Source: an uncultured Roseibium sp. (lineage in GTDB: Bacteria > Pseudomonadota > Alphaproteobacteria > Rhizobiales > Stappiaceae). Taken from it: a DNA stretch of 64,000 nucleotides. Both the position numbers and the translations under genes were made by a program. The stretch lies in the NCBI RefSeq assembly GCF_947496995.1, contig NZ_CANMFD010000001.1, positions 926,692 to 990,691 on the forward strand. The letters are read 5' to 3'. The notes beneath the pieces were generated by a model, which was given only the letters and a program-made list of their open reading frames with translations, was not told the origin of the DNA and searched no databases. The number at the start of each line of letters is the position of its first letter. Position 1 is the stretch's first letter. Shown piece after piece: positions 1 to 13,274 of the stretch.

Positions 1-249
1 AAGTTGCTGAGCGGTCTAAAGCGTATGGAAAAGAACCGATCTGTTTATGATCAAGTCAGGTTCCTTGCATCATGGCTTGAGGAAATTGATCGCGAAGACC
101 TTTTTTCTACGGAAGAAAGTTCTGCCTCAAAACTTAGCTTTGGCGAACTTCTCGTCGTTGAAGGTGGGCGGCATCTAAATGAGTCACTCTGGGCACCGCT
201 TAGCTCACCTGACGACGATCATATCCAGGAAAGGTTTGGTGAAGTTTGA
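1..249 (+). CDS. C-terminal end of an unidentified protein, candidate partner of the short Argonaute (5' partial)
   Basis: The reading frame is open at the left window edge, so only about the last 82 residues are visible. They are acidic and mostly helical in character and show no motif I recognise. The stop codon overlaps the TTG start of the following Argonaute gene, so the two are probably translated together. In described short-Argonaute systems the gene before the Argonaute usually encodes a TIR-APAZ or SIR2-APAZ effector subunit, and this could be the end of an APAZ domain. That identity rests on gene position only. The effector domain, if there is one, lies outside the window. Confidence 0.55.
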   Translation, partial: KLLSGLKRMEKNRSVYDQVRFLASWLEEIDREDLFSTEESSASKLSFGELLVVEGGRHLNESLWAPLSSPDDDHIQERFGEV

Positions 250-1664
250 AGCTTGATTTTCTAAATGAGCCGAGGCTTATTTTTGCGAATGGAAATCATA
301 TCTGTCCTCGTCGCGGCATTACTGCATATGGCGTGTTTGATCAAACGCAAGAATCGCGGCGTTCGGAAATCCATATAGGCGGAATCGGTACAGCCGAAGG
401 TATTGAAACACTTGGGCGGTGGCTTGAGAGATGCAAAGAAGGCATTGCAGCGCCCGCTGATGCGCGGCAACAAAACTTACGTTTGGATTTTTGCGGCTTC
501 AATAAATCTCACGGCTTTCATGCTGAAATGCACTTTGGAAGTGACCTTGGCAGGTCTATAAAAAACTCAGACATCGGGCGAGTCGTAAATATCACGTCTC
601 GAACCGAGAGAATCGACGCCGCTCTTGAATTGTACTATGAAGAGATCAAGTTCCTCGCTCAAAATCGACATGTAGACGTAATCGTCTGCGTATTACCCGA
701 AAACTTATATGATGCTATTTCCTCAGAAGAAAATCCTGGCCAGGATACTCTTGAAGACGATTTGCCATCGGAGGAGCTGAATTTCCGCAGAGCTTTAAAG
801 GCGAAAGCAATGCCTTTGGGTAAGCCCTTGCAGCTCGTGCGCCAGGTTAGTTTAGATGGAACTAAAGTACGTGAGCAGCAAGACGACGCCACGAAAGCTT
901 GGAATTTTTGCACAGCACTATACTACAAATCCGGTCCGACAATTCCCTGGAAACTGGAGAACGAACAGTCTCGTGGAACATCATGCGCAATTGGCATCGC
1001 ATTTTATCGAAGTCGAGATCGCGCGACGCTTCGAACCAGTCTTGCGCAAATTTTCGATGAATTAGGAAATGGATTGATCTTACGAGGCACCCCGGTGCAG
1101 CTCGATAAAGATGACCGCATACCACGTCTATCAGCCGAGCAAGCTCATAATCTTTTCTCCGCAGCCTTGAAGGAATATCGTATTGCTATGCGGAACTTTC
1201 CGGCGCGTGTAGTCGTTCATAAATCATCGAATTTCACGCCTGAAGAGATTGCTGGAATAGAAGATGCCGCACAAGAACTAAGAATTGATGCTGTCGATTT
1301 TGTAACAATAATGGATTCTAGATTTCGACTGTTTAGAGATGGTCAATATCCACCATTTAGAGGGACATTGGCTCGTGTCGAAAGTGATCGACATCTCCTC
1401 TATAGTAGAGGCTCGGTTTGGTATTATCAAACTTATCCGGGCCTCTATGTGCCTCAGCCAATTGAATTGCGGATTGTAAAATCAGAAGAATCTCCAAGGC
1501 TTATTGCGAATGAGATACTTGGCCTGACCAAAATGAATTGGAATAATACTCAGTTCGATGGGAAATACCCAGTGACATTGGGTTGCGCAAGAAAGGTCGG
1601 TGAGGTGATGAAATACCTGAGTGAGACTGATACACCTCAAGTTCGCTATGGCTACTACATGTGA
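246..1664 (+). CDS. Short prokaryotic Argonaute (MID-PIWI), catalytically inactive
   Basis: The product has 472 residues, the usual size of short pAgos that keep only MID and PIWI domains. A MID-like part spans roughly residues 120-235, including the segment around 191-200 (LGKPLQLVRQ). The PIWI core follows: LYYKSGPTIPW at about 225-235 resembles the family's 'KxGGxPW' strand, and VVVHKSSNF at 322-330 is a typical PIWI strand. At 249-253 the sequence reads IGIAF where active Argonautes have a catalytic Asp (G-x-D), so nucleic-acid cleavage is unlikely. Known short pAgos use a guide to sense invading DNA and activate an NAD-depleting partner. The gene overlaps the upstream partial gene, which is the natural partner candidate. 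The TTG start is the one producing that overlap. Confidence 0.85.
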   Translation: MKLDFLNEPRLIFANGNHICPRRGITAYGVFDQTQESRRSEIHIGGIGTAEGIETLGRWLERCKEGIAAPADARQQNLRLDFCGFNKSHGFHAEMHFGSDLGRSIKNSDIGRVVNITSRTERIDAALELYYEEIKFLAQNRHVDVIVCVLPENLYDAISSEENPGQDTLEDDLPSEELNFRRALKAKAMPLGKPLQLVRQVSLDGTKVREQQDDATKAWNFCTALYYKSGPTIPWKLENEQSRGTSCAIGIAFYRSRDRATLRTSLAQIFDELGNGLILRGTPVQLDKDDRIPRLSAEQAHNLFSAALKEYRIAMRNFPARVVVHKSSNFTPEEIAGIEDAAQELRIDAVDFVTIMDSRFRLFRDGQYPPFRGTLARVESDRHLLYSRGSVWYYQTYPGLYVPQPIELRIVKSEESPRLIANEILGLTKMNWNNTQFDGKYPVTLGCARKVGEVMKYLSETDTPQVRYGYYM

Positions 1665-1700
1665 AACCGAGTCATATCCAACGCGCAACTCAGTGTTGAA

Positions 1701-2564
1701 TTACTCTTTAAAAAGATGGCCGAGGCCTTTGCCAACAAGCGCAGCAATTTCACTTGGTCGGTAGGAGGCGGCTAGCAGCTTGTTGTCGTCATCACTCAAT
1801 GCATTTTCATACCCATCCCATTTTTGCGTTTCAGCCATTGTTTTTAGGGCATCAAGGCCATCAATCAAACGCTGGTCGCGCTGATCTTTGTCTGCTTCAG
1901 CCGTCGGAAGCCACTCAGCGTAACTCGGGCGAAGTGCTCGAACGATATCAATTGTTGCTCCCCCAAAACCGCCTGCAAGATAAAGCGGTTGACGATGTTT
2001 TAGAGAAAGTAAGACCTCCTCTACAATGCCGGGCATTGCGCCTTCGAAACCGGCTCGTTTGCCACCAAGAACAATGCGGGCATCAGTATTGTTAGTCATG
2101 TAGTTTCTTAAACCAGAAAGCGACTTGGCTCGCTCATCAGCCGTAAATTCTTGTTGGGGCGGATCGTTGTGCGGCCCGTCCAGACGATCCCCATCTTCCG
2201 ATAAAAAAACAATATCTCCAAAAAGACCCAGAAAGTCTTTTTGCTCTGCTATCTGCTCTGCGGTCAGAGAGCGATGTATCGTCCAGGCAAGGCATACTTT
2301 TAGAGGGCGATCTCGACGGCCATAGCGATGCAGTTCCTCTATCAAAAAACTTGTGATGCCGTCCGATTGAAGGTGCCCTCCGTAGAACAGGGAGCCGCCG
2401 CCAATTATAACAGTACGCGTTAGTTCACCTAACGTCATACGAAAATGCGTATCTAGCAAACCCAACCTATGCAGGTCGGGGCTGTCTGAGACTGAAATTC
2501 CAAGACGTTTTTCACGAAGCGCGTCGGCAGGGAGCAACTCCGCACGGTGTAGGTCAGTGCTCAT
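1701..2564 (-). CDS. SLOG-family nucleotide-sensor-like protein
   Basis: This 287-residue soluble protein has a Rossmann-like N-terminal half typical of the SLOG superfamily. It shows GISVSDSPDLHRLGL at 22-36, the glycine-rich loop IIGGGSLFYGGHL at 53-65, and VLGGKRAGFEGAMPGIVEEV near the middle. SLOG domains bind nucleotide-derived ligands; in Thoeris the SLOG domain of ThsA binds the cyclic-ADP-ribose isomer made by the TIR protein. The gene starts two bases after the stop of the tandem-TIR gene upstream on the same strand, so the two form an operon. No SIR2 or other effector domain is visible, unlike ThsA. The C-terminal 80 residues are not recognised. It could be a regulator, or an effector of a new kind. 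Confidence 0.75.
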   Translation of the reverse strand: MSTDLHRAELLPADALREKRLGISVSDSPDLHRLGLLDTHFRMTLGELTRTVIIGGGSLFYGGHLQSDGITSFLIEELHRYGRRDRPLKVCLAWTIHRSLTAEQIAEQKDFLGLFGDIVFLSEDGDRLDGPHNDPPQQEFTADERAKSLSGLRNYMTNNTDARIVLGGKRAGFEGAMPGIVEEVLLSLKHRQPLYLAGGFGGATIDIVRALRPSYAEWLPTAEADKDQRDQRLIDGLDALKTMAETQKWDGYENALSDDDNKLLAASYRPSEIAALVGKGLGHLFKE

Positions 2565-2566
2565 AA

Positions 2567-3814
2567 CTACCCGCCTCTGGTCGCCAGTTGACGTGGCGTC
2601 ATAATATCAACTCCCCGTCCAAGGCGAGTTCCACTAACATATTTTTGCAAAACACTCCTTTCTTCCGGTCCCAATGGCGGATCGGGATGGAGTATTCGAA
2701 TATCGCCTTCACCGTCCGCCGCGTTTTCAAGATTGTTTTCAATCCAGTGAGATAGTGTGAGGAACTCAGGCGCATGGGGAGCCCACCAAGCGACATCGAG
2801 CTCCGGACGGTTCTGAGCGAGCTCTTTTTGGCGTAGCCAAAGTGCCCGCTTTAGACATTCATCAACGAGGAGATTCAAAGCACGATACACGTCTCTTTTT
2901 TGCCATCGTCCATCGATTTTGCGGACGGCAATCCGTGGAACGTGATCCATTAAGAATGATCCTCGCTCTTCACCATAGCCTATTGCGTCCATCATGATCA
3001 CAGGCATGCCTTCGGTTTTTGCAATCACGACCTCGCGTTGGCACCATTCTCGGCTGGAATAAAGGTCTGTTCGGATCGCAAGCATGGCGCTTGTACCGGC
3101 TTTGCCTCTCAGCTCCGCGTCCCAATCCGTGCCTGGTTGAATGTCGTTGGCATCAAAGAAGTCATTCAGGCGTGTGCTGCCGATTACGTGTCTGACAAGA
3201 TCAACCAACTCATCTACGTCTTCGCCCTCAGTTTGGCTGTGCCGTTTTGTATGGCTGATGAAGGTTGTCAATCTATCCATTTCATCTGGCGAAACCAGTT
3301 GCGCGATGCCTTGGGTTAGATCTCGACAAAGCATGCTTTTGACATCTTCCCCTTCCTTATCAGGCTGGCCTGCTGCTGAAAATTGATAGCCGCCAAGCAA
3401 TCGACCAAGTTCTGTACCGTCCGTTGCTCCTCTCGAAAGCAGGAACGGGAACACACCGAATTTGTCCGGCTGATTTTCTTGTGCACCTGCTACAGAAGCA
3501 ATGAAGTGATGCCATGAGGAGTTCGTGTCTTCGACACTAGCTGCCAGTTCAGTTCCTAATAGTGGCACCGCTGCAACAAAATTAGCCGGTGGTATCCCGT
3601 TGGGAGCTGGAGCCCCCTCCCAATAGACTGGCCGCGGAGCGCCGTTATCACTTTCCCAAGTGGCGCTTCGCATCGATACTTGGATGCCCCCGCCGATTAC
3701 GCCTGAAAACGTAGGCCCGTGCATAAAGTGCTTGAAGATGGCTTCGGCTAGAGCTGCTCCCGCCTCATCCTGAGGATGCCAAATCAGAAATATCTCTAGG
3801 ACAGGAGGAAGCAT
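2567..3814 (-). CDS. Tandem TIR-domain protein paired with the SLOG protein
   Basis: The product has 415 residues. A clear TIR domain occupies about 180-330: FISHTKR at 185-191, and SSREWCQREV at 253-262 with Glu261 in the position of the catalytic glutamate of NAD-cleaving TIR domains. The first 110 residues (EIFLIWHPQDEAG near 7-19, then AAVPLLGTEL at 81-90) resemble a second, degenerate TIR-like fold. TIR enzymes cleave NAD and may release cyclic signals. The gene is first in a two-gene operon with the SLOG protein and divergent from the ThsB-like TIR operon. By analogy with Thoeris, the TIR would make a ligand that the SLOG protein senses; this is inference. Confidence 0.85.
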   Translation of the reverse strand: MLPPVLEIFLIWHPQDEAGAALAEAIFKHFMHGPTFSGVIGGGIQVSMRSATWESDNGAPRPVYWEGAPAPNGIPPANFVAAVPLLGTELAASVEDTNSSWHHFIASVAGAQENQPDKFGVFPFLLSRGATDGTELGRLLGGYQFSAAGQPDKEGEDVKSMLCRDLTQGIAQLVSPDEMDRLTTFISHTKRHSQTEGEDVDELVDLVRHVIGSTRLNDFFDANDIQPGTDWDAELRGKAGTSAMLAIRTDLYSSREWCQREVVIAKTEGMPVIMMDAIGYGEERGSFLMDHVPRIAVRKIDGRWQKRDVYRALNLLVDECLKRALWLRQKELAQNRPELDVAWWAPHAPEFLTLSHWIENNLENAADGEGDIRILHPDPPLGPEERSVLQKYVSGTRLGRGVDIMTPRQLATRGG

Positions 3815-3906
3815 CTAACCTCTTTCATTCATTGAGTTCTTTGCTCGCATTACGATTATGTGTAGTGTATCATAATGAAATAGAACACCAAGGGTTGTCT
3901 TCAGCT
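3815..3906. promoter_or_regulatory. Divergent promoter region between the two TIR operons
   Basis: Ninety-two AT-rich bases separate the start codons of the minus-strand TIR/SLOG operon and the plus-strand TIR-Nmad2-MazG-UDG operon. On the plus strand TTGAGT at 3832-3837, sixteen bases, then GATTAT gives a loose -35/-10 match. Both operons must be controlled from here, which may allow joint regulation. No convincing operator palindrome was seen. Confidence 0.4.
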
Positions 3907-4383
3907 ATGACAAAAGAAACAAAAAATGTTTTTATTAGTCACGTCCATAAAGACGACGCGGGTCTTGCTGACCTGAAGAATCTCTTGAAAAACAAAGGCA
4001 TGGATGTTCGGGACAGCTCGATTAATTCGGACCGTCCGAACAACGCAACATCGCCCGAATATATCAAATCACAGATATTGGCTCCCCGAATCGATTGGGC
4101 CAGCACAATGATTGTTTACATTTCACCGGAAACCAAAAATAGCGATTGGGTCAACTGGGAGATCGAGCGCGCTCATAAGCAAGACAAGACAATCATTGGA
4201 GTGTGGGAACGCGGTGCCAATGGCTGCGAAGTTCCAGAAGCGCTGGACGAATACGGTCACGCTCTTGTCGGTTGGAATGCAGACAAAATTATTGACGCGA
4301 TTAATGGTGATTATGAGCAATTTGAAAACCCTGACGGCACGCCCTGTGGACCTCGGCCTATTCGCCGACATCCCTGCGGGTGA
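3907..4383 (+). CDS. ThsB-like TIR domain protein
   Basis: From ATG 3907 the product is 158 residues, almost entirely one TIR-like domain of the MTH538/DUF1863 type that includes Thoeris ThsB. FISHVHKDD at 9-17 opens the first strand, DSSIN at 37-41 follows, then EYIKSQIL at 51-58 and WVNWEIERA at 81-89 with Glu85 as the likely catalytic glutamate. A longer in-frame TTG start at 3832 would add 25 residues unlike the family and run through the promoter region, so ATG 3907 is preferred. AAGGG lies about twelve bases upstream. Family members sense phage and make an NAD-derived signal. The downstream partners here are nucleotide and DNA enzymes, not a SIR2-SLOG effector. Confidence 0.85.
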   Translation: MTKETKNVFISHVHKDDAGLADLKNLLKNKGMDVRDSSINSDRPNNATSPEYIKSQILAPRIDWASTMIVYISPETKNSDWVNWEIERAHKQDKTIIGVWERGANGCEVPEALDEYGHALVGWNADKIIDAINGDYEQFENPDGTPCGPRPIRRHPCG

Positions 4384-4384
4384 G

Positions 4385-5017
4385 GTGACTAATGTGCCGA
4401 CACTTCACAGCTATATTGTAGCCTATGACAGCGGGTTTGCTCCTAACCCATTTAATGGTTTTTGCACACTTGCTACCTGCAAGCCTGACATCAGGCAGCG
4501 AGCGGCTATAGGTGATTGGATCGTCGGCACCGGTAGCAACAGAGCGGGGGTGCGTCGCGGAGGGTTTCTCGTCTATGCCATGCGTGTCTGCGAGGCGCTC
4601 ACATTTGGTGAATACTGGCACGACCCCCGCTTTTCGAAAAAGAAGCCAAATCTATACGGTAGCTATCGCATGGCTTGTGGCGACAATATTTACTATCCCG
4701 TTGAAGGTGGTGGATGGGGGCAGTTAAATTCCTACCATAGCCAAGAAGACGGCACATGTTTTCAAAAGCATATCAACAGAGACACGTCAGTAGACCGTAT
4801 TTTGATCAGCAATGATTTTGTCTATTTTGGCGCTGAAGGGCCAGAAATACCCGACGATCTTAAAGACGCAGGCCTTGTTCTTTCTGGGCGAGGTCGAAAA
4901 AAAATCGAAGACGAAGCGACCATTCAGGCCTTTGTTCAGTGGCTGGAAGGACTCGGTGTCAAAGGTTACCAAGGGCGGCCTTTCGATATGCTTGAAGCGG
5001 CGAGGAAACGCACATGA
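4385..5017 (+). CDS. Nucleotide modification associated domain 2 (Nmad2) protein
   Basis: This 210-residue product matches the Nmad2 family pattern along its length. HSYIVAYDSGFAPNPFNGFC starts at about residue 8, followed by TLATCKPDIRQ, then GDWIVGTGSNRAG. Nmad domains were described computationally in phage and bacterial operons linked to modified or hypermodified DNA bases; their biochemistry is largely unproven. The GTG at 4385 begins one base after the TIR stop; GTG 4394 is an alternative. The reading frame is open far upstream, but that part merely shadows the TIR gene. The end overlaps the next start as ATGA, so translation is coupled. Its role is probably recognition or processing of a modified base or nucleotide. 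Confidence 0.75.
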   Translation: MTNVPTLHSYIVAYDSGFAPNPFNGFCTLATCKPDIRQRAAIGDWIVGTGSNRAGVRRGGFLVYAMRVCEALTFGEYWHDPRFSKKKPNLYGSYRMACGDNIYYPVEGGGWGQLNSYHSQEDGTCFQKHINRDTSVDRILISNDFVYFGAEGPEIPDDLKDAGLVLSGRGRKKIEDEATIQAFVQWLEGLGVKGYQGRPFDMLEAARKRT

Positions 5018-6168
5018 CCGAAGCGGGGGCCAGTTCAAACGTATTGCTTTCTGAATATGAGCGATTAGTCGCTCCGACAGACCGTTTCTCCAAGGCCGAT
5101 GTCATCCCGATCCTGCTTGGACTTTTTGGTGAGGTCGGCAGCGTAATGAGCACGTCCAAGAAATTACACCGAGAGAAAAGCGCTTTTGCCGCTGGTTATA
5201 TGCGCGATGTTGAGGAAGAGCTTGGAGATACGCTGTGGTATGTAGCAGCTCTTTGCAGGAGATTTGATATAAATCTATCGGATCTGTTCTCGGAGGCTCT
5301 TGAGGGGCAAGGTTTTTCGATGAGCATAGTCGCAAACGGAAATCCTAGCCTCCCGTTTGCGAAAGCCATTAGCTCCGTTGATTTAGCTCCTTTGGATTCA
5401 ATATTACTGCGCCTTGGTGAGCAGGCCGCTAGGTTACTAAATCTGGAAACGGATGCAGCAAACGCCAAGACAGAATTGGTTGAATTTATTCGAACTTACA
5501 TCGAGGCAGTGCAAGCATCCAAGGTGTCTTTTGCATCAGTCTTAAACGGCAATATCTCAAAAACCTGTGGCCGATTTATTACGCCGCCTGCTGACACTCT
5601 TCCTGATTTTGATGCCGAATTTCCTGAAGACGAACAAATTCCAAGAGATTTCGAGATTGAAATTACCCAAAAAGCAGACGGTAGGAGTTATCTGCGGTGG
5701 CAGGGCGTATTTATCGGGGATCCGTTGTCTGACAACATCGGCGATCCTGACGGCTACCGCTTCCACGACGTGTTCCATTTTGCCAATGCAGCCATACTTC
5801 ATTGGTCGCCTACTTTCCGTGCTCTAATTAAGCATAAGCGTAAGAGCATGAAAGACGTTGACGAAGCCCAGGATAGCGGTCGCGCAATAGTCATTGATGA
5901 AGGGCTTTCCGCCTACATTTTCTCTCATGCTAAGTCACTGAACTTTTTCGAAAATCAAGACACCGTCTCCTTTGACCTTCTCAAAGCAGTTCAAAATTTT
6001 GTACGGGGCTATGAAGTGGAGCGCTGCCCCTTAAAACTATGGGAAGACGCAATCCTTCAAGGTTATGAAGTCTTTCGGCAAATGCGAAAAAACGAAGGTG
6101 GTATTGTCATCGGCAACAGAAAAGATAGAACGCTGCGCTACAAGCCGCTCAAAAGGAAGGTTTTATGA
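5014..6168 (+). CDS. MazG-like nucleotide pyrophosphohydrolase with C-terminal MazG-associated domain
   Basis: The product has 384 residues. Residues 30-85 form an all-alpha NTP pyrophosphohydrolase core: GEVGS at 39-43, then EEELGDTLWYVAAL at 67-80, supplying the metal-binding Glu/Glu/Asp pattern. The second half contains YRFHDVFHFANAAILHWSP near 247-265, typical of the MazG C-terminal domain. MazG enzymes hydrolyse (d)NTPs to monophosphates, cleaning or depleting nucleotide pools. The gene overlaps both neighbours by ATGA, making it the third gene of a coupled four-gene operon. In a defence setting it could remove a toxic or modified nucleotide, or starve phage replication; neither can be shown from sequence. 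Confidence 0.8.
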   Translation: MTEAGASSNVLLSEYERLVAPTDRFSKADVIPILLGLFGEVGSVMSTSKKLHREKSAFAAGYMRDVEEELGDTLWYVAALCRRFDINLSDLFSEALEGQGFSMSIVANGNPSLPFAKAISSVDLAPLDSILLRLGEQAARLLNLETDAANAKTELVEFIRTYIEAVQASKVSFASVLNGNISKTCGRFITPPADTLPDFDAEFPEDEQIPRDFEIEITQKADGRSYLRWQGVFIGDPLSDNIGDPDGYRFHDVFHFANAAILHWSPTFRALIKHKRKSMKDVDEAQDSGRAIVIDEGLSAYIFSHAKSLNFFENQDTVSFDLLKAVQNFVRGYEVERCPLKLWEDAILQGYEVFRQMRKNEGGIVIGNRKDRTLRYKPLKRKVL

Positions 6169-6842
6169 GTTCGAAGGAAATTCTGAACGCCATTAAACAG
6201 ATGGATTTCGAAGATACCTTCAATCCGTATTTTGAACGTTGTTCAGTCTACGACTCGGAAGACGCTGCAGAATTGCGCTGCCACTACCTTGTAGAAATGC
6301 TGGAACGGGCGGCAGCAAGTGATCTTGACGCTATATGGGTAGGGCGTGATCTCGGTTACCGTGGAGGACGGAGAACCGGACTCGCGTTGACGGACGATGT
6401 GCACTTTTCAGATCATCTCGTTCGTTGGGGGCTTGATCCTAAGCGTCCGACCTATGGTGATCCGGTTGCTGAAAGAACTGCAGCGGTTATCTGGGATATT
6501 CTGCTTCGTGTGAATGAACCCATTTTCCTATGGAATGTCTTTCCATTACATCCATTTGAGAAGGGAGATCCATTCTCAAATCGTGCTCACAATGCTCGGG
6601 AGAGAAAAGCAGGCACGGAAATCCTAGTGAAAATTGTCGAATATATTAAGCCGCGCCGTATTATTGCGATCGGAAATGACGCGTTCAAAGTTCTGAGTGC
6701 AGCCTGCGGCGAAGATCGGGTTAGCAAAGTTAGACACCCGAGCTACGGCGGGCAGACCGAATTTTTATCTACGATGAGAAATCTCTATGAAGGAGAAATT
6801 ATCGAACGCGAGGTTGATCTATTTTCTCATGCCAAGTCTTGA
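6165..6842 (+). CDS. Uracil-DNA-glycosylase superfamily protein
   Basis: The 225-residue product follows the UDG motif order. AIWVGRDLGYRGGRRTGLAL begins at about residue 56 and aligns with the UNG water-activating loop (GQDPYHGPGQAHGLAF), keeping the Asp (Asp62) but replacing PYH by LGY. FLWNVFPLHPFEKG at 121-134 follows, then IIAIGNDAF near 166-174 and HPSYGG at 191-196, the DNA-intercalation loop motif HPS. UDG family enzymes flip out and excise damaged or altered bases. Linkage to Nmad2 and MazG suggests a base other than ordinary uracil may be the target. It is the last gene of the operon and ends 16 bp from the convergent HEPN gene. Confidence 0.8.
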   Translation: MSSKEILNAIKQMDFEDTFNPYFERCSVYDSEDAAELRCHYLVEMLERAAASDLDAIWVGRDLGYRGGRRTGLALTDDVHFSDHLVRWGLDPKRPTYGDPVAERTAAVIWDILLRVNEPIFLWNVFPLHPFEKGDPFSNRAHNARERKAGTEILVKIVEYIKPRRIIAIGNDAFKVLSAACGEDRVSKVRHPSYGGQTEFLSTMRNLYEGEIIEREVDLFSHAKS

Positions 6843-6857
6843 TTGCATAGATGGATG

Positions 6858-8354
6858 CTAAACTTTCCATTCGTCATCCCACCTGCTGAGCGGCATGCTC
6901 GCAACCAATCCATCTTTGTCTGCATGGCGCATCTGTTCTTCGCGATACACGGCCAGAGACAGATAGATCAACGCCGAGCGGGCCAGTTTAAGTACGCGTA
7001 ATGTCTTAGCCTCGAATTCGTTTCGAGAAATGTGATAACCGGGACTGCCTCCGAGATGATCTTGGAAACCTCCGCCAAGAGCCCAGGATTCGTGAACCTG
7101 AAAGTATTTGTGTTCGAGAAAATTCCTGATCTCGGCCAGGGACTCAGCCTCGGGCTCCATCACTTTCTTGAACTCGGGCTCAAAGATGTCCTTTGAGAGC
7201 CAGAACAAGCCGCGCAGCGCTAAGTTTTCCCGCCGCTGGAAGATCGGCCGCAATTCTTTCGTCCGGTCTTTCTTGAACCGGTACCAAACATTCCTGAAAT
7301 TCACCTTGTCGTCAGCCCAACCGACTTGCATGTAGTGATTGATGAAGAAAGCGATTTTGTCGAACAGCGAATATCCCATTCGGTAGGCAAGTCGGACTTT
7401 CTCAACAGCCAGGGCATATGACGGATAGTCTAGTGTGTTGTAGAGCGCGACATCCTTGTCGGAAAAATGCGCGGTGTCGAAGCCTGAACCCAATTCCGCG
7501 CCCTCATAGAAAATATATCGTGCTGAAACGAATTCTTGCTTGAGCTGGTTATAAAATCCGATCACAGGCGGTGGGTTCGGCCCTTCGTATTCGTCGAATG
7601 CAAACGTCATTGACGGGAGGGTCAGGATATCCTGAGCTGCGATGTTTTTTGCGCCGATATCATTGAGCGGGTTTAGGAACAGACGGTTCCGCAGAACCCA
7701 TTTTCGGTATGCGCATTCTTTTGGGCTATCTCCGAGAGAGAACTCCGTTGAATTTAGATTCTCACGCGCGCTATCCAGATCAAGTTGGGCTGCAATCTGT
7801 TCATGGGACTTTTTGAACTGATCGCTAAATGCTGCGTTGTGAACGGATTCAAAAACGGCTTCCGGTGACGACGCCTCTGCATATGAATCTGCTGCGGCCA
7901 GTTGGAGCATATATGCGTGCCCCTGATCGTAGACGCTTCTTGCATAGTAGGAAAATCCTAGCCCACGGTTTGCAAGTGCCACCGCAAATCGCTTTTCTAG
8001 GCAAAGAACACGATCCCATAGTTCGATAGCTTCGATCACGCGGCCCACGGAATTGAGTGTGTTGGCAAGATTCGTCAGTATTGCGCAGCGCCAAACTTCC
8101 TCAAGTTCTTCAAAGCCCTCGTGCCTTGCCGCTAAGCGTAGGTGCAGAATCTGGTTTTGAATCTCCTCAATGTCCCAATCCCAGCTTTGCTTTTTGGCGT
8201 TCTCGCGAAGTCTGTTTTCCCAGGCATTAGAGCGGAAATAATGGAGCAATACGCTCTGCTTGGGTGTCAGGTCGCGCTTTTCAATGGCGTCCATCAACGT
8301 AAAAGCGCGCCTGGTTAGTGCTGCATCGCCGTTGTCTCCGGCCATGTCGATCAA
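6858..8354 (-). CDS. TPR/HEPN protein of the LA2681 type
   Basis: The product has 498 residues from TTG 8354; ATG 8345, with GGGAG ten bases before it, would remove three residues and may be the true start. The N-terminal part (about 60-200) looks like helical TPR-type repeats (NLANTLNSVGRVIEAIELWD near 96-115). The C-terminal part carries the HEPN ribonuclease motif R-x4-H as RNFLEH at 410-415, inside a region resembling the LA2681-type HEPN domain. HEPN proteins are commonly metal-independent RNases that act as toxins or abortive-infection effectors. It stands alone, convergent with the UDG gene, at the edge of the defence cluster. No antitoxin partner is visible. Confidence 0.75.
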   Translation of the reverse strand: MIDMAGDNGDAALTRRAFTLMDAIEKRDLTPKQSVLLHYFRSNAWENRLRENAKKQSWDWDIEEIQNQILHLRLAARHEGFEELEEVWRCAILTNLANTLNSVGRVIEAIELWDRVLCLEKRFAVALANRGLGFSYYARSVYDQGHAYMLQLAAADSYAEASSPEAVFESVHNAAFSDQFKKSHEQIAAQLDLDSARENLNSTEFSLGDSPKECAYRKWVLRNRLFLNPLNDIGAKNIAAQDILTLPSMTFAFDEYEGPNPPPVIGFYNQLKQEFVSARYIFYEGAELGSGFDTAHFSDKDVALYNTLDYPSYALAVEKVRLAYRMGYSLFDKIAFFINHYMQVGWADDKVNFRNVWYRFKKDRTKELRPIFQRRENLALRGLFWLSKDIFEPEFKKVMEPEAESLAEIRNFLEHKYFQVHESWALGGGFQDHLGGSPGYHISRNEFEAKTLRVLKLARSALIYLSLAVYREEQMRHADKDGLVASMPLSRWDDEWKV

Positions 8355-9020
8355 GCTCCCGATGAGATCGAGTGCTTCTTCGTTACTTTTTGCGTCAATG
8401 TCGGCTGCCTTTGTGATCGTCGTAATGCCTTTTGTTATGTCGCACCCCGGTTATCGAAAGCGTGTGATTGCAATTAAATGTCTAAAATACTGAAATATTC
8501 TAATGTAGATTGCAGAGTGACTTCAACGTTAAACACTGCCGATAATGAGGGATTCCTTGAGTGGTAGGCGCATCCCACTTAGTGGGACCGGGCTGTCGTG
8601 AACCGAGCCTGTAGTCTCGGCCATGGGGGCGTCCATCCCTTGCGCGTTTCGGGCATGGCGGCGCGGGGCGCCGGCTTTATTGCGCGTGTGTCACACGCTC
8701 TTGGAACCTAAGCTTCCAGCTTAAACCGTCCCATCCCGCCTGATCCAATAGCCCTGATCTGCGTCTGCCCGCTCCATTCGATACGGCCCTGGGCCGCATC
8801 TCCCGTGTTGCCGAGATCGCCTTTGGCGTCGCAAGCGACAGGACTTTGGGGCGCTCTGTTTGACGGTACTCCCGTCCTCTTGATCGTCGCCGTCCGCTGG
8901 TGCGGATCGGCGGCTTTGTCTCTTTGATTGGTATCGGACGCTCGCCGCTGGGCAAGGGTTCAAGCGCGGGGTGAAAGGTTTCTCGCGCTGCTTGAAACCC
9001 TAAAACCAAGTGAGGCAGCA
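8355..9020. promoter_or_regulatory. Long non-coding leader upstream of ardA with several palindromes
   Basis: No convincing gene lies in these 666 bases. Several perfect or near-perfect inverted repeats are present: TCCCACT/AGTGGGA at about 8571-8585, CCGAG/CTCGG around 8600-8617, GCGTGTG-T-CACACGC at 8684-8698, and TAAGCT-TCC-AGCTTA just after. ardA genes in mobile elements can be driven from structured single-strand promoters active early after transfer, so this could be such a leader. That is inference; no promoter was pinned down. Confidence 0.4.
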
Positions 9021-9527
9021 ATGATCCTACTCCATGCACAACCCTACGATATCTCGGCAGTTGGCTTTTATTTTGAAGACGCAGAAAGCTACGAGGCCAA
9101 GGCAAAAAACAACAAGAACGATTACGGCCAGCCCGTCGAGGAATACGAAATCCAGTTCATCGATGGCGATGACATCGATTGCGCATTGGCAAAGGCGTGG
9201 GGGATCAATCAAGCCAATTTTGCGGCGTATCTAGAGGCAGCAGAAGATTGGGATGAAGACGACAAGCACCGCTACATCATCGCCGTGGGCGAGTGCGGTT
9301 ATTCCCATGAGCAGGTGGCAAGCGATCCGAGCAGCGTAGATATGAGCATCTACGAGCTGTCATCCATGCGTGATCTGGCAGAGCAGTTTGTAGAGGAAGG
9401 CCTTTACGGAGCAATCCCCGAAAGCCTGCAATTTTACATCGACTATGAGGCCATCGCCCGTGACCTCGCGGTGGACTATTCCGAAACCACGATAGCGGGA
9501 ACCAATTTCATTTTTCAATGCGCGTGA
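9021..9527 (+). CDS. ardA: Antirestriction protein ArdA
   Basis: From ATG 9021, preceded by GAGG, the product is 168 residues. It is a strongly acidic DNA-mimic type protein. Its C-terminal half reads IYELSSMRDLAEQFVEEGLY, then IPESLQFYIDYEAIARDLAV and YSETTIAGTNFIF, all characteristic of ArdA. ArdA mimics B-form DNA and blocks type I restriction-modification enzymes during transfer of mobile elements. An in-frame start at 8928 would add a basic extension unlike the family and is not used. A strong hairpin follows the gene. Its presence supports the view that this island moves between cells. Confidence 0.88.
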   Translation: MILLHAQPYDISAVGFYFEDAESYEAKAKNNKNDYGQPVEEYEIQFIDGDDIDCALAKAWGINQANFAAYLEAAEDWDEDDKHRYIIAVGECGYSHEQVASDPSSVDMSIYELSSMRDLAEQFVEEGLYGAIPESLQFYIDYEAIARDLAVDYSETTIAGTNFIFQCA

Positions 9528-9572
9528 TCGGCATCAGCACATGAAGACGGCTTCACATCTGACTGAAGAGTA

Positions 9573-9598
9573 GGGGTTCAGCAAGGCTGAACCCCTTT
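9573..9598. terminator. Hairpin terminator between ardA and the convergent gene
   Basis: GGGGTTCAGC at 9573-9582 and GCTGAACCCC at 9586-9595 form a perfect ten-base-pair stem with an AAG loop, followed by TTT. It lies between the ends of ardA (+) and the glyoxalase-related gene (-) and could serve both. Confidence 0.75.
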
Positions 9599-9620
9599 CC
9601 CAATTCAGCATGGCAAGCTG

Positions 9621-10298
9621 TTAGGACGCTTCTTTCCAAAACGGCGATGAGAAGATGTCTATCGGCGTTGCACTGCATTCCGGGCAATGCCACATGTTTT
9701 CTGCCAATTGCTTGCCACTGATCGCAGCATCGCAGTGAAGGCAAAACCACTGGCTAGCCAGCTCTTTGTTTTCCCATAGCGGATGAACGACGCGCCCTTG
9801 GGCATCAGGCTTGGTGGAACGTCGAGGCCAGTCCGATGAAATACGCGCCCGAACCCGATCTGCCGCTTCTTTTGCGATGCTCAAAGCGCGCCCCAAAATC
9901 GCAGGGTCATCAATCGGGCAAGCCTTGTATTTTTCGATTGTCGGAGGTTCGGACGGTGCATGTCCTAAATGGATGCACCAGCCATTTTCCCCAAGCAGCA
10001 CATAGTCAAAGCCAAGGGTGAGTTCATAGGGATGCCCATCAATTTCACCCCGATGGGTTTCCTCGGAATCCAGCGGTATCTGGCCCTCAGCTCCACCTTC
10101 TAAGAGAGCACGCACGGCAGTCTCATTCTCTTTTGAAGGTCGCCACCCGTTCTCAAAGGCGGATGTCAGGCTATTCCAGTGCGATTGCCCGCATGCAACT
10201 GCAATTGCATCCAGTGCCTCGTGATGGGCAATACGAGAGCCTCTAGCCAGTTGTTTTGCGGATTTCTTTAGGTCGGTTAGTTTGTTTTGATCTGTCAT
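9621..10298 (-). CDS. Glyoxalase-related N-terminal domain protein with C-terminal zinc ribbon
   Basis: The product has 225 residues. The N-terminus (LTDLKKSAKQLARG, then HHEALDAIAVACGQSHWNSL at about 25-44) fits the small 'glyoxalase-related, N-terminal' domain found in plasmid and integrative-element proteins. The C-terminus contains two CxxC pairs, FCLHCD and HCPEC near 184-210, which should bind one zinc. The middle is not recognised. AAAGGA lies before the ATG. No enzymatic role can be assigned; this type of gene recurs as mobile-element cargo. It converges on ardA. Confidence 0.55.
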   Translation of the reverse strand: MTDQNKLTDLKKSAKQLARGSRIAHHEALDAIAVACGQSHWNSLTSAFENGWRPSKENETAVRALLEGGAEGQIPLDSEETHRGEIDGHPYELTLGFDYVLLGENGWCIHLGHAPSEPPTIEKYKACPIDDPAILGRALSIAKEAADRVRARISSDWPRRSTKPDAQGRVVHPLWENKELASQWFCLHCDAAISGKQLAENMWHCPECSATPIDIFSSPFWKEAS

Positions 10299-10505
10299 GA
10301 TCCATTCCTTTCGGATTCACGGACCTGACTAGGTGCCCACTGCCAATCAAGCCCGCCCAATCGGGAACGGTCGTGAAAGATTTAATTGAGAGCACTGCGT
10401 TGCTTCGCGAGCGGTGGGCACACCGGCCTGTGCTTAAGGCCAGATAAAATGATGCCAATATTTAATAGCTCAGTCAAGTTATTGAGTGTTTTCCTGTTTT
10501 CCTAG
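10299..10505. other. Intergenic stretch, nothing recognised
   Basis: These 207 bases upstream of the glyoxalase-related gene hold no ORF with family resemblance. They should contain that gene's promoter, but no confident -35/-10 pair was identified. Confidence 0.4.
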
Positions 10506-11087
10506 CTAGCGCAGGATGCTGATAGGGGATGATTGCTCGAATTCTTGCCGTGCGGCTTGCATACGCGCTTCCATCTCAGCCTTCAGAGGCGCGTATGCCT
10601 CGATCTTGTAGCGAAGTTTTCGAACCGCGCCCTCGCATTTCCAAATCTCGCGACCGAGCTGCGCTTGAACCAGTGCCTTTGTTTCGGCGAGCGGATCAGC
10701 GGCTGACCTGGCTGATGCAATCAACTGCGCGGTGTAATCGACGTTCGCCTTCCGCGAGGAATCGGCAACCTCAGTGAATGCAACGGAAGTCGCTTTGTTG
10801 CCGTCGATCCGGTTGTTCTCGTATCGATGGAGTAGGAGCCCGAAACTGGCTTCAAACCGATACTTTTCAAGCGTATCTGCAATCTTAACAGGCTCGTACC
10901 CCCAAAGCCGCGAGGCATACTCGCTGTATTCCTCGACTTCGCTCATCATGCTTTGCGCTTTTGCAACCAAGGACAAGCAGGCAAGGAAATCGTCCTCGCT
11001 CGGGCTTGCGGCATTTGCATTTGATGCCATGACCAATACCGCAGCTGCAGCGATAGGCTTGAGAAGTTTTGCTTTAAATCCCGTCAT
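10506..11087 (-). CDS. Secreted or periplasmic protein of unknown function
   Basis: From ATG 11087, preceded by AAGGGG, the product is 193 residues. A classical Sec signal peptide is visible: a basic start (MTGFKAKLLK), a hydrophobic stretch (PIAAAAVLVMASN) and a likely cleavage after ANA at about residue 26. The mature protein is helical and charged, with two widely spaced cysteines that could form one disulfide. I do not recognise the family. A longer start at 11117 would precede the signal peptide and is disfavoured. It lies alone on its strand inside the mobile region. Confidence 0.6.
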   Translation of the reverse strand: MTGFKAKLLKPIAAAAVLVMASNANAASPSEDDFLACLSLVAKAQSMMSEVEEYSEYASRLWGYEPVKIADTLEKYRFEASFGLLLHRYENNRIDGNKATSVAFTEVADSSRKANVDYTAQLIASARSAADPLAETKALVQAQLGREIWKCEGAVRKLRYKIEAYAPLKAEMEARMQAARQEFEQSSPISILR

Positions 11088-11282
11088 CCCGTTCCCCTTG
11101 AAAATACTGATTTGCAATCAGCCTGATCGTCCACGCTCAGCGAATCCGCGTCAAGGTTGAACGAGCCTACTTATTCTTGGGAGGTTGCCAGGAATTCTTG
11201 TGTGTGTTCACTCCAAACCAATAGGTTGCCATTCGATTGCCGCGAGAGGTAAAGTGATTGAAATAATTACTGCATTTCAGTT

Positions 11283-12191
11283 ATGGGGGCTGACTTGAAA
11301 ACTCTCGAAGACATTTTGAGGAAACGCTCTTCACCGGCGCTGCTCATCGGCAACGGAATAAACCGCTATCAGAACACCAATGGGTCATCCTCTTGGGAGA
11401 GCCTGTTGCAACAAATAGCCCGGGCCCAAAACCTTGCCTTCAGCCAAAACCAACTCAAAGAGATGTCGAATACGGAGTTTTTCGATATCCTTGATCTTGC
11501 CAGACCCGGTGATGACCGAAGTGATCTGCAACGAAAGTTCTGCGCGCTGATGGATAGCTGGCAGCCCAAGAGCCACCATTCGAAAATAGTGGGCTGGGCG
11601 CGAAGCCGTTCAGCGCCGGTCATAACTGTCAATTTTGACGAGAACCTTTCCCAAGCGGTCAGGGCAAAATATCACGCGCCAAAAGCCAGAAAAGGTTTCA
11701 CTGACTACTATCCCTGGACTTCATATTTTGCGGAATCGGAAATCGCCACTCCAAGGACCAGCTTTGCGATCTGGCACGCGCATGGAATGAAAAGATATTC
11801 GCGCAGCATTCGCCTCGGTCTTACGCATTACATGGGATCGGTGCAGCGGGCGCGAAGCTGGGTTTACGGCAAAAAGGGCATTCGTATGAATGCCAAGGAA
11901 AGCCTCTCGAATTGGCCTGGCGCGAACACATGGCTCGACCCACTGTTTTTCTCACCGCTGCTTATTCTCGGGTTCGGGTTTGGAAAGGACGAAACCTTCC
12001 TCAGATGGTTGTTTTTGGAGCGAGCAAGGCTTCACAAAATCCGCCCCGAATGGAAACAGCAGGCTTGGTATGTGACGAACAAATCAAGCGGGAACAGGGA
12101 CCGGAGTCCCTTTTTCAAGGCATTGGGTCTTCAGATGATCGAGGCCGAAAGCTACGAAGAGATTTACGACAATCCGGCTTGGTTACCCTGA
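11283..12191 (+). CDS. SIR2-like NAD-binding protein, stand-alone
   Basis: The product has 302 residues with the layout of the SIR2_2-like group. ALLIGNGINRY at 19-29 is the nucleotide-binding loop, VITVNFDENL at 113-122 corresponds to the conserved TxNxD segment, and IWHAHGM at 163-169 holds the His region. LLILGFGFGKDETFLRWLF near 220-240 is a strongly conserved C-terminal motif of such proteins. Several SIR2-like proteins of this size deplete NAD during phage infection, so a defence role is plausible. No obvious partner gene is adjacent. Weak ribosome-binding context before the ATG makes the exact start uncertain by a few codons. Confidence 0.75.
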   Translation: MGADLKTLEDILRKRSSPALLIGNGINRYQNTNGSSSWESLLQQIARAQNLAFSQNQLKEMSNTEFFDILDLARPGDDRSDLQRKFCALMDSWQPKSHHSKIVGWARSRSAPVITVNFDENLSQAVRAKYHAPKARKGFTDYYPWTSYFAESEIATPRTSFAIWHAHGMKRYSRSIRLGLTHYMGSVQRARSWVYGKKGIRMNAKESLSNWPGANTWLDPLFFSPLLILGFGFGKDETFLRWLFLERARLHKIRPEWKQQAWYVTNKSSGNRDRSPFFKALGLQMIEAESYEEIYDNPAWLP

Positions 12192-12272
12192 TGCAAGCCC
12201 CATTGGATAAAGATATCCCCTCTGAAGGCGGCAATGGAAACGGCAGGCCAGGGATCGCCTGCCGCGTGGCGG

Positions 12273-12452
12273 TTAGCCGAAGGGCGGACGAAGCACGAGT
12301 TCAGCCTCAATGTTTTCAAGTGAAGCCAAAGCATTTCTGCGATCTTCCGATCCGCGCGGTGCGGATGCGAATGCGTTGAATGCCTCACGGTAAAGAGCGT
12401 TAAGTTCGGCTGTGTTACGGGACGCAGCTTCAAAGCGGGAGATGAGTTTCAT
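12273..12452 (-). CDS. Small hypothetical protein of the mobile region
   Basis: A 59-residue product starting MKLISRFEAASRNTAEL. The start at 12452 is set by a strong AGGAGG four bases before ATG; the longer frame upstream lacks such a site. It is predicted to be mostly helical, with no domain recognised. Small genes like this often travel next to toxin-antitoxin and mobilisation genes. Confidence 0.6.
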   Translation of the reverse strand: MKLISRFEAASRNTAELNALYREAFNAFASAPRGSEDRRNALASLENIEAELVLRPPFG

Positions 12453-12618
12453 CGTTTCCTCCTTTGTTTCAAGGAGGCCCCGAACCATTCAGGGCCTTTC
12501 GGCCCGTTCCCAGCATCATTGGCTCAGAGAAGGCCTGATGGTTCGCGGGGGGTGACGCCGGATCAACAAGAAGGAGGAACGCTGTAAACGCACGGATGCG
12601 CGCTAAATGCGCGTTTAG

Positions 12619-12648
12619 TTGACGTTGCACGCGCAAATGTGAGAAAAT
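12619..12648 (+). promoter_or_regulatory. Putative parDE promoter with nearby operator-like palindrome
   Basis: TTGACG at 12619-12624 and GAAAAT at 12643-12648 are spaced 18 bases apart and lie 27 bases before the parD ATG. Just upstream, TAAATGCGCGTTTA at about 12604-12617 is a near-palindrome and could be the ParD autoregulatory operator. The assignment is by position and pattern only. Confidence 0.4.
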
Positions 12649-12674
12649 AAGACGTGAATGATAGGAGAAACGCC

Positions 12675-12950
12675 ATGGCGGATACGCACGACACGAAAAT
12701 GATCAAACGGCTGAATACCACGCTGCCCGACCCACTGGCGCTGTACGTTGGTGAAATCACCGGCAAGGGCTCGCTATACGAGACACCGAGCGAGTTCATC
12801 CGCGATCTGGTGCGCAGGCACATGGAAAAATCGCTAGAACAGGAACGCGGCGATATCCGCACATTGCTTGCCCAATCCTTGCGCGAGAACGATTATTCCG
12901 ATCTGACAGACGACGACTTTGCCGACGCCCGCAAAGCAGCGACTGAATAG
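12675..12950 (+). CDS. parD: Antitoxin, ParD-like ribbon-helix-helix family
   Basis: From ATG 12675, preceded by GGAG, the product is 91 residues. The N-terminal half (IKRLNTTLPDPLALYVGEI, then ETPSEFIRDLVRRHME) is a ribbon-helix-helix DNA-binding domain of the CopG/ParD type. The acidic C-terminal tail (SDLTDDDFADARKAATE) would wrap the toxin. Antitoxins of this kind neutralise ParE and repress their own operon. The toxin gene begins seven bases after its end. An upstream in-frame ATG at 12654 is less well placed. Confidence 0.85.
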   Translation: MADTHDTKMIKRLNTTLPDPLALYVGEITGKGSLYETPSEFIRDLVRRHMEKSLEQERGDIRTLLAQSLRENDYSDLTDDDFADARKAATE

Positions 12951-12956
12951 GCGCTT

Positions 12957-13274
12957 ATGTCCAGGATTATCCGCAGCGCACTTTTCAAACGCCAGCTTAT
13001 TGAAATCACTACCGGTTACCGCAGCCGCGCGGGATCGGAAATTGCTCTTAAATTTGTCGACCAGCTTGAGGTGAGCGTTCGCTTTATTGCCGCGAAGCCC
13101 TTGGCTTGCGCGGTCTACACGCGGCTGGAAGGCAAGGAATTCCGCAAATGGGGCGTGCAGGATTTCCCTGTTTCGATCTTCTTCCGGATTGAGGATGAGG
13201 ATACGATTATTCTCGACGCGCTCTACGCTCACCGTATGAACATTGCCGCGCGCTTACCCAAAGACATTGAGTAA
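12957..13274 (+). CDS. parE: Toxin of the RelE/ParE superfamily
   Basis: The product has 105 residues and the compact ParE layout: a helical start (SRIIRSALFKRQLIEITTGY), then a beta-rich half with RLEGKEFRKWGVQDFPVSIF and IEDEDTIILDALYAHRMN. The final R-D-A-L-x-x-x-R-type segment is typical of plasmid stabilisation toxins. ParE toxins poison DNA gyrase; RelE relatives cut mRNA. Sequence alone cannot fully separate the two, but the ParD partner favours ParE. The operon likely stabilises the mobile element. Confidence 0.85.
   Translation: MSRIIRSALFKRQLIEITTGYRSRAGSEIALKFVDQLEVSVRFIAAKPLACAVYTRLEGKEFRKWGVQDFPVSIFFRIEDEDTIILDALYAHRMNIAARLPKDIE

Follow-up and report, generated by a model that had tools for sequence, protein, structure and literature searches.

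A TIR-Nmad2-MazG-UDG operon with a divergent TIR-SLOG gene pair in Roseibium: a possible Thoeris-like defence unit directed at altered thymine

The stretch of DNA analysed here (the window, 64,000 nucleotides from an uncultured Roseibium sp., G000:C1:926692-990691) carries six genes in two divergent sets: a four-gene operon coding for a ThsB-like TIR protein, Nmad2, a MazG/MazG_C protein and a glycosylase-like protein of the UDG superfamily, and, 92 bp away on the other strand, a pair coding for a second TIR protein (TIR2) and a SLOG cluster 2 (LD_cluster2) protein. Our preferred reading, to which we assign a probability of roughly 40%, is that the six genes form a Thoeris-like abortive-infection system that signals through NAD, with Nmad2, MazG and the glycosylase on its sensing side. 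That the unit serves anti-phage defence, by whatever mechanism, is highly probable, and a messenger logic running from TIR to SLOG is also probable, if less secure. The evidence consists of gene content and order, their conservation, the swapping of partner genes, mostly intact active-site motifs and a predicted, weakly matched reader-like fold of Nmad2.

The operon lies on the forward strand and starts with the TIR gene (3907-4383, 158 aa), whose product is a putative synthase of an NAD-derived messenger. It is followed by the genes for Nmad2 (4385-5017, 210 aa), predicted to be a PUA/ASCH/EVE-like reader of a modified base or nucleotide, for a protein with a MazG-type all-alpha nucleoside triphosphate pyrophosphohydrolase domain and a MazG_C domain (5014-6168, 384 aa), and for the UDG-superfamily DNA glycosylase-like protein (6165-6842, 225 aa). 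As an earlier reading made from the letters of the window (the sequence-only reading) had claimed, the four genes are tightly packed, which can be read directly from the DNA: a single base (4384) separates the TGA stop of the TIR gene (4381-4383) from the GTG start of Nmad2 (4385-4387), Nmad2 and MazG have an ATGA in common at 5014-5017, MazG and UDG a second one at 6165-6168, and none of the four frames is interrupted before its single terminal stop. The ATG at 3907 agrees with the TIR start in relatives; the longest open reading frame (ORF) would start at a TTG at 3832. The four genes of that reading are real but belong to a larger unit, the divergent pair at 1701-3814 having been overlooked; likewise, in its 'MazG-like' gene the second and larger domain, MazG_C, was missed. 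The pair, on the reverse strand, comprises TIR2 (2567-3814, 415 aa, with a TIR_2 domain), a putative NADase effector, and its partner, the SLOG gene (1701-2564, 287 aa), coding for a putative messenger receptor. The 92 bp between the two gene sets (3815-3906, GC content 0.37) presumably hold both promoters.

How widely is this arrangement conserved? A scan of a genome collection with a 13-protein Nmad2 alignment matched 575 stretches, 548 of which encode a relative; locus counts below refer to the best 80 of these 548, picked by similarity to the window's Nmad2 and not an even sample, with flanks of up to 8 kb a side, and the 80 loci represent 55 lineages at 85% Nmad2 identity. The gene-order search put forward with the sequence-only reading finds TIR-Nmad2-MazG-UDG complete, in order and on one strand in 63/80 of these closest relatives, and TIR stands directly before Nmad2 in 78. 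Among the remainder, in nine loci TIR and MazG are present but UDG does not come next (L044 and L082 reach the contig edge, and in L083 UDG follows ~1 kb on), six have TIR-Nmad2 with no MazG directly after, one at a contig edge has Nmad2-MazG (L056) and one has Nmad2 alone (L096). Within the 63 complete loci, MazG and UDG overlap by 4 bases in 41 and TIR and Nmad2 by 1 base in 39; the Nmad2/MazG junction is +3 in 26 and -4 in 15. For these counts each gene was taken to begin at the in-frame start codon closest to the stop before it, a choice biased towards tight junctions.

Background rates come from 398 genomes of the phylum, drawn evenly: Nmad2 is present in six of them (and in 1/87 genomes of the family), LD_cluster2 in seven, MazG_C in four and LD_cluster3 in eight, seven of these over cut-off. 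The prospect, raised with the earlier reading, that the four genes are rarely together elsewhere is thus not borne out among close relatives, whereas, taken over the Nmad2 family as a whole, the four-gene set is in the minority, with one of the six Nmad2 genomes of the even sample, the window's own, having it. Plasmid occurrences amount to 17 and 34 records, the 34 being those of MazG. That the unit is one of defence, probably directed at a modified base or nucleotide, as had been proposed, is supported by the conserved operon, its sporadic distribution, its low GC content (0.50 over window positions 1-13000 vs 0.616 over 25000-64000) and neighbours of defence type - a class I prokaryotic Argonaute (pAgo; PADLOC), a TPR-HEPN protein and a SIR2_2 protein (both Pfam).

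The operon TIR matches Pfam ThsB_TIR (PF08937, 1.8e-23, 83.3 bits vs a cut-off of 21.2) and is ThsB by PADLOC (PDLC00418, 3.5e-72 over residues 3-157); PADLOC gave no match at E<=1 for the Nmad2, MazG/MazG_C and UDG-like proteins. Its PDB profile matches include 8wcf (4.2e-12), ThsB1 9b7d (4e-6) and 6lhy (4.1e-6), and Glu85, which from TIR motifs we take to be the catalytic glutamate, is kept in 94/95 alignment rows (the rows used for residue conservation, here and for MazG and UDG below, were not made non-redundant). The idea that this TIR is the sensor or killer arm fits poorly: it belongs to the signal-making ThsB type, and 56/80 loci have a separate effector candidate of SLOG type in their flanks, so that the operon TIR is more likely a messenger synthase than a killer, and the TIR2-SLOG pair more likely the killer.

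Effector candidates are of four kinds - TIR2 with LD_cluster2, ThcB4 with ThcA (LD_cluster3), SIR2-STALD ThsA, and patatin - and some loci carry more than one. The 56 loci include one (L095) in which TIR and SLOG are fused in a single 860-aa protein, in the order of ThsA with TIR in place of SIR2, and number 55 without it; by lineage, with L095 left out, the count is 34/55, or 33 without patatins. The window's own kind of pair, TIR2 with a SLOG of the LD_cluster2 family, lies beside the operon in 20/80 loci counting L095, the LD_cluster2 SLOG being in the flanks of 19 (20 with the fused protein). A second pair, consisting of a ~385-aa TIR and a ~195-aa LD_cluster3 SLOG, lies beside the operon in 28/80 loci, mostly downstream and on the other strand (29 by hidden Markov model, HMM), and LD_cluster2 and LD_cluster3 are together in 0/80. 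One example of each protein of this second pair passes the NCBIfam models of Thoeris type III, ThcA (L097) with 223 bits vs 110 and ThcB4 (L067) with 478 vs 220. A SIR2-STALD protein occurs in six of the 80 loci, the example in L073 being ThsA by PADLOC (2e-200), and a patatin phospholipase in nine, as sole candidate in L066 only; the one patatin checked for a SLOG part, in L068, has an LD_cluster2-like N-terminus (2.3e-8).

The window's SLOG protein matches PF18163 (4.3e-57), its alignment having no match at E<=1 among PDB sequences, and TIR2 scores 25.8 bits against TIR_2, under the Pfam cut-off of 28. TIR2 is homologous to the ThcB4-type TIR over most of its length (hhalign 95%), and the window's SLOG family is related to the ThcA-type SLOG (hhalign 64%, E 6.6e-5). 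Effector pair and operon run in one direction in L003, L046, L055, L057, L059 and L077, and in L094 there are 4-base overlaps at the Nmad2/TIR2 and TIR2/SLOG junctions, behind TIR. In the even sample, Nmad2 and LD_cluster2 co-occur in two genomes, the window's (G000) and G368, and adjoin in both; in G368, TIR-Nmad2 is found with a thymidylate synthase, a methyltransferase, a 5-hydroxymethyl-deoxyuridine (5-hmdU) DNA kinase and TIR2-SLOG.

This kinase alternates with the glycosylase as partner of MazG_C. Among the 80 loci the partner is UDG in 66 and the 5-hmdU DNA kinase (HMUDK) in seven, with both in none and neither in three, while four loci lack all three genes; by lineage there are 43 with UDG, six with the kinase, 0/51 with both and two with neither, four lineages lacking all three. 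For the 51 MazG lineages, which are not fully independent, Fisher p is 1.6e-6; the kinase was counted with a profile built up from that of L013. On plasmids, judged by coordinates among the matches listed (40/45 UDG records), the 34 MazG records comprise 23 with UDG adjacent (one adjacency spans the record origin), nine with the kinase within ~3 kb, two with neither and none with both. Three further genomes of the even sample have MazG_C and no Nmad2, and here its partner is UDG in G404 but the kinase in G174 and G374. Both kinase loci opened on annotated plasmids carry a thymidylate synthase, one of them a dCTP deaminase as well, and a thymidylate synthase profile finds five genes in the loci scanned (L013, L078, L101, L110 and L111), none of them in a UDG locus. 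L004 carries a thymidylate kinase (Pfam 2.2e-17), and L072 and L076 share its BLAST cluster. The 5-hmdU DNA kinase of phages phosphorylates 5-hmdU in DNA (PMC6449724). In E. coli, defence by a 5-hydroxymethyluracil kinase and by a thymidylate synthase has been validated (PMC13092281). The pairing of MazG_C with either UDG or the kinase, the kinase versions often having thymidylate synthase too, suggests as common factor the replacement of thymine by a base such as uracil (U) or 5-hydroxymethyluracil (5hmU); judged from this gene company, we would give slightly less than even odds that the target is a base of the U or 5hmU type.

Several kinase gene rows are worth recording in their own right. 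Two rhizobial plasmids (L141:4733-9032 and L142:1741-6058) carry a helix-turn-helix (HTH) gene, an ImmA/IrrE peptidase, thymidylate synthase, 5-hmdU kinase and MazG in a row, probably a regulated sister system. A plasmid version from Parabacteroides (L009:7499-12141, + strand) reads TIR-Nmad2-HMUDK-radical SAM-521-aa gene, and nearly the same row is found on a viral contig (L099). MazG_C was also considered as a relative of the kinase, and no similarity was found by profile.

The MazG_C domain is assigned with confidence (PF18722, 1.2e-81). The N-terminal MazG domain falls under its Pfam cut-off (18.3 bits vs 22) and matches iMazG (2q5z, 1.1e-6) and DCTPP1 (1.4e-4) by profile. A model of the whole protein (predicted local distance difference test score, pLDDT, 88.2) shows an all-alpha MazG domain plus the MazG_C domain; among PDB folds credible matches were obtained for the N-terminal domain only (iMazG, DCTPP1, dimeric dUTPase), none at E<=0.001, and for MazG_C no credible solved structure was among them. 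In a phage collection (50,697 records), MazG matches are confined to the N-terminal domain, in 12 records. The UDG-like protein matches PF03167 (1.3e-6, 29 bits vs a cut-off of 24.3) and, weakly, the profile of the family-4 UDG of S. tokodaii (4zbx, 0.006), and fails the NCBIfam family-4 UDG models (17.1 bits vs 125.3, 18.3 bits vs 250). It keeps D62 (76/77), N124 (77/77, aligned with N82 of the S. tokodaii enzyme) and H191-P192-S193 (77/77), and bears what we take to be UDG-superfamily motif 1 and the H-P-S motif 2. The phage collection contains no match to it at E<=0.001.

Nmad2 itself is a firm family assignment (PF18753, 6.4e-75, 251.5 bits vs a gathering cut-off of 26.1), and its AlphaFold2 model has a pLDDT of 95.6. 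The best PDB folds for this model are ASCH domains (E 4.9e-3, probability 0.94), several ASCH chains ranking top, followed by MJECL36, the McrB N-terminal domain, YTH domains and unrelated folds; ASCH and EVE proteins also recur among weak matches in viral models, none at E<=0.001. The model thus weakly suggests a PUA/ASCH-like reader fold, and whether Nmad2 would act as a reader is in our view an even bet. Nmad2 has no match in the phage collection at E<=0.01, and seven relatives lie on viral contigs, one of which (L097, 20.6 kb) holds the entire operon. Another viral contig (L101:5552-10391, + strand) looks like a phage replication region: thymidylate synthase and dCMP deaminase are followed by two small genes and then by Nmad2 and DNA polymerase A, perhaps a set for phage base modification that uses Nmad2. 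Two genomes of the phylum have a two-gene Nmad2-Nmad3 pair (L112:8729-10242, + strand; L113:7343-8778, - strand), near a transposase and an AbiEii gene.

Three loci (L004, L072 and L076) carry TIR-Nmad2 twice, in back-to-back pairs: one pair precedes a ~860-aa protein of a cluster we call c10 (a patatin by Pfam in L004), the other precedes MazG-UDG, and TIR2-SLOG lies further on. The c10 family, found by HMM in 12/80 loci and directly before TIR on the same strand in five, includes L070:6784-7470 (+ strand) and 13 others; two short members scanned have no Pfam match, and c10 is also the N-terminus of six ~860-aa proteins, the one scanned having a patatin part. It was tried as a relative of Nmad2, with no similarity found, and against PDB profiles it gave no credible relative, just chance-like matches to designed helical proteins; it is maybe a further receptor or sensor domain.

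How might the six genes work together? Under the preferred reading, in which the biochemistry throughout, the target's chemistry and the way the signal runs are all inferred from sequence, the two divergent halves would be a sensing half (the operon) and a killing half (TIR2 and SLOG). Replication of a phage with altered thymine would give rise to an unusual 5-substituted uracil nucleotide, most likely deoxyuridine or 5-hmdU and its derivatives. MazG would act on or bind the odd triphosphate and the glycosylase would act on the odd base in DNA; Nmad2 would bind the product or the modified base and switch on its partner TIR. This ThsB-like TIR would convert NAD+ to a cyclic or linear ADP-ribose messenger, and SLOG, on binding the messenger, would activate TIR2, which would drain NAD+ and so stop the infection. 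A variant holds that the freed pyrimidine is itself the message: released from phage DNA or its deoxynucleoside triphosphate (dNTP) by the glycosylase, or by MazG plus a nucleosidase step, it would be passed by Nmad2 to the TIR and swapped for nicotinamide on NAD+, giving a base-ADP-ribose that only SLOG would read. We regard this as a long shot, for which there is precedent in Thoeris TIR products that arise by base exchange or as base-like adducts, namely imidazole adenine dinucleotide (PMC11204291) and His-ADP-ribose (PMC12948488); if true, the phage's DNA modification would be chemically copied into the alarm signal.

A number of observations weigh against our reading. The Nmad2 model finds no PDB fold at E<=0.001, its fold matches being weak, and the evidence for the chemical target is the company the genes keep. 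No effector candidate is seen in 24/80 loci, of which 14 have a flank of <5 kb on one side and ten have >=5 kb on both sides of Nmad2. The L068 patatin is named a CBASS phospholipase by NCBIfam (210 bits vs a cut-off of 200), so patatins may belong to another system, and the window's SLOG gives no match to the NCBIfam ThcA model (NF058525), just as TIR2 fails that for ThcB4. Among the six Nmad2 genomes of the even sample, only the window's has the four-gene operon, G092 and G156 having Nmad2-Nmad3 and G194 and G293 other company, and LD_cluster3 is in none of the six. LD_cluster2 and LD_cluster3 also partly track the Nmad2 tree. Finally, the modules also live apart: MazG-UDG is found with no Nmad2 in the stretch read (L006, L014 and G404), TIR2-SLOG likewise in L129-L131 (the three read of five LD_cluster2 genomes lacking Nmad2), and Nmad2 stands with Nmad3, with no TIR seen, in L112 and L113.

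Co-location could therefore reflect the stacking of two or three independent defence modules, with TIR2-SLOG plus TIR-Nmad2 forming one, and MazG-UDG working separately as a restriction pair. In the same scheme, MazG-UDG would remove the foreign dNTP and, like Brig1, a UDG-superfamily enzyme that gives defence by itself (PMC11078745), excise the corresponding base from the phage's DNA. Besides MazG-UDG without TIR-Nmad2, the converse occurs, TIR-Nmad2 being found with no MazG-UDG in the stretch read in L009, L013 and L110, and MazG-UDG is on the strand opposite TIR-Nmad2 in L011 and L081. A quick tree built from 109 Nmad2 rows shows at least eight switches of the UDG/kinase partner and at least 12 of the effector (several branches are long, and the partner was left blank if none was within 2.8 kb). 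Nevertheless, many of the 63 complete loci again show tight junctions between the four genes, which argues for co-expression, something independent modules do not need. We consider stacking unlikely on balance, while acknowledging it as a serious contender.

A different use of the same genes is suggested by position 43 of MazG, where the family motif would presumably call for an acidic residue: this residue is mostly G or S and is E in 1/84, a further point against our reading, while its neighbours are invariant. MazG might bind, without hydrolysing it, a non-canonical dNTP made during infection and relay this signal to the TIRs, UDG and Nmad2 serving as accessory suppliers or readers. Such a scheme has a precedent in Kongming, in which dITP binds KomB and KomC depletes NAD+ (PMC12948488). 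Set against it, E40 (84/84), E69 (83/84) and D72 (84/84) are kept, so that catalysis is possible, and we judge this scheme improbable. Less probable again is a self-marking system in which the UDG or kinase modules would edit DNA of the host itself and the TIR would kill once the mark was gone: L013 and L110 hold kinase versions whose thymidylate synthase and methyltransferase genes could serve to make a modified base, but no such gene adjoins the window's version, and thymidylate synthase is in none of the UDG loci scanned. That host nucleotide housekeeping or repair genes drifted into an island, the MazG and UDG families including housekeeping and repair enzymes, can be dropped on the sporadic distribution of Nmad2 and MazG_C at the rates given above, the more so in view of the plasmid records, the low GC content and the pAgo, HEPN, SIR2 and TIR genes close by.

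For few Thoeris-type systems do we know of a recognised phage feature. If the preferred reading is right, the sensing side is here spelled out as named enzymes and what is probably a reader domain, all indicating one chemistry, thymine replacement, with the glycosylase or the 5hmU DNA kinase interchangeable while the NAD-signalling half stays. DNA-base modification, a main phage answer to restriction, would then be linked to NAD-based abortive infection. To our knowledge, Nmad2 and MazG_C are named domains without known function; both would gain a role, and phages with U-DNA or 5hmU-DNA would form a ready test panel.

The operon's neighbours in the window deserve brief mention. Window positions 4-1664 (+ strand; also L140:8793-10241, + strand) hold the class I pAgo (PADLOC 1.6e-181), preceded by a 482-aa SMEK-domain protein ending at window position 249, and the same pAgo family is near the TIR/Nmad2 locus in L002, L092 and L110. 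Convergent with the operon, a TPR plus HEPN_LA2681 protein (2e-75; 6858-8354, - strand) ends 15 bp from the UDG stop, and its family is also downstream of the operon in L027. The same low-GC stretch holds a 302-aa SIR2_2-domain protein (11283-12191, + strand) with no SLOG match; further on lies an ORF of 2237 aa (17972-24685, - strand) with no Pfam match at 1e-3. The pAgo, HEPN and SIR2 neighbours were considered as parts of the system and dropped, the pAgo family being in four clustered loci and the HEPN family in two.

With which known systems can the unit be compared? KomA, KomB and KomC belong to other protein families. What Kongming shares, compared by description, is the idea of a non-canonical deoxynucleotide triggering NAD loss (PMC12948488). 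Brig1, likewise compared by description, is a UDG-superfamily enzyme of defence islands, near ThsA-like genes, and differs in having Glu147 do the job of the residue that corresponds to N124 here (PMC11078745). DefensePredictor (2026, PMC13092281) is the closest in domain names: MazG, MazG-C, a nucleotide modification associated domain and, in a legend, UDG are among its highlighted, untested defence predictions, several of these domains being credited to a study cited as Burroughs 2015, and enzymes of the sister module are those validated in E. coli. The legend of its E. coli validation figure also names NMAD and a deoxynucleoside monophosphate (dNMP) kinase; blastn of the L113 Nmad2-Nmad3 DNA against the ecoli_genomes set found nothing, so this NMAD could not be tied to Nmad2. 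The word 'Thoeris' does not occur in the main text of that paper. TIR-SLOG antiviral systems are mentioned in PMC9503650. Among the matches listed (titles and beginnings of abstracts, with subscription papers and figures outside), there is no published test of this gene set and no tie to Thoeris effectors. The prediction of the parts is thus already in print, and the link from operon to Thoeris effectors and the UDG/kinase alternation were not found there.

The nearest relations are with Thoeris. Type III, known here by the NCBIfam model names ThcA and ThcB4 alone, is alike in that a TIR and SLOG pair lies beside the operon in relatives and that the window's TIR2 is homologous to ThcB4, and unlike in that TIR2 reaches 16.7 bits against the ThcB4 cut-off of 220 (NF058526). 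In type I a cyclic ADP-ribose isomer is made and binds the SLOG domain of ThsA, and type II makes His-ADP-ribose (PMC12948488, PMC11204291). Type I differs from the window in its effector, which here is a split TIR plus LD_cluster2 SLOG with no SIR2-STALD protein - TIR2, the SLOG protein and the SIR2_2 gene at 11283 have no PADLOC ThsA match and no STALD by Pfam - and in lacking the Nmad2, MazG/MazG_C and UDG genes that are added to the operon of the window's ThsB-like TIR. What the two have in common is a TIR that is ThsB by PADLOC and a SLOG protein next door, together with the SIR2-STALD gene in the flanks of six of the window's 80 relatives.

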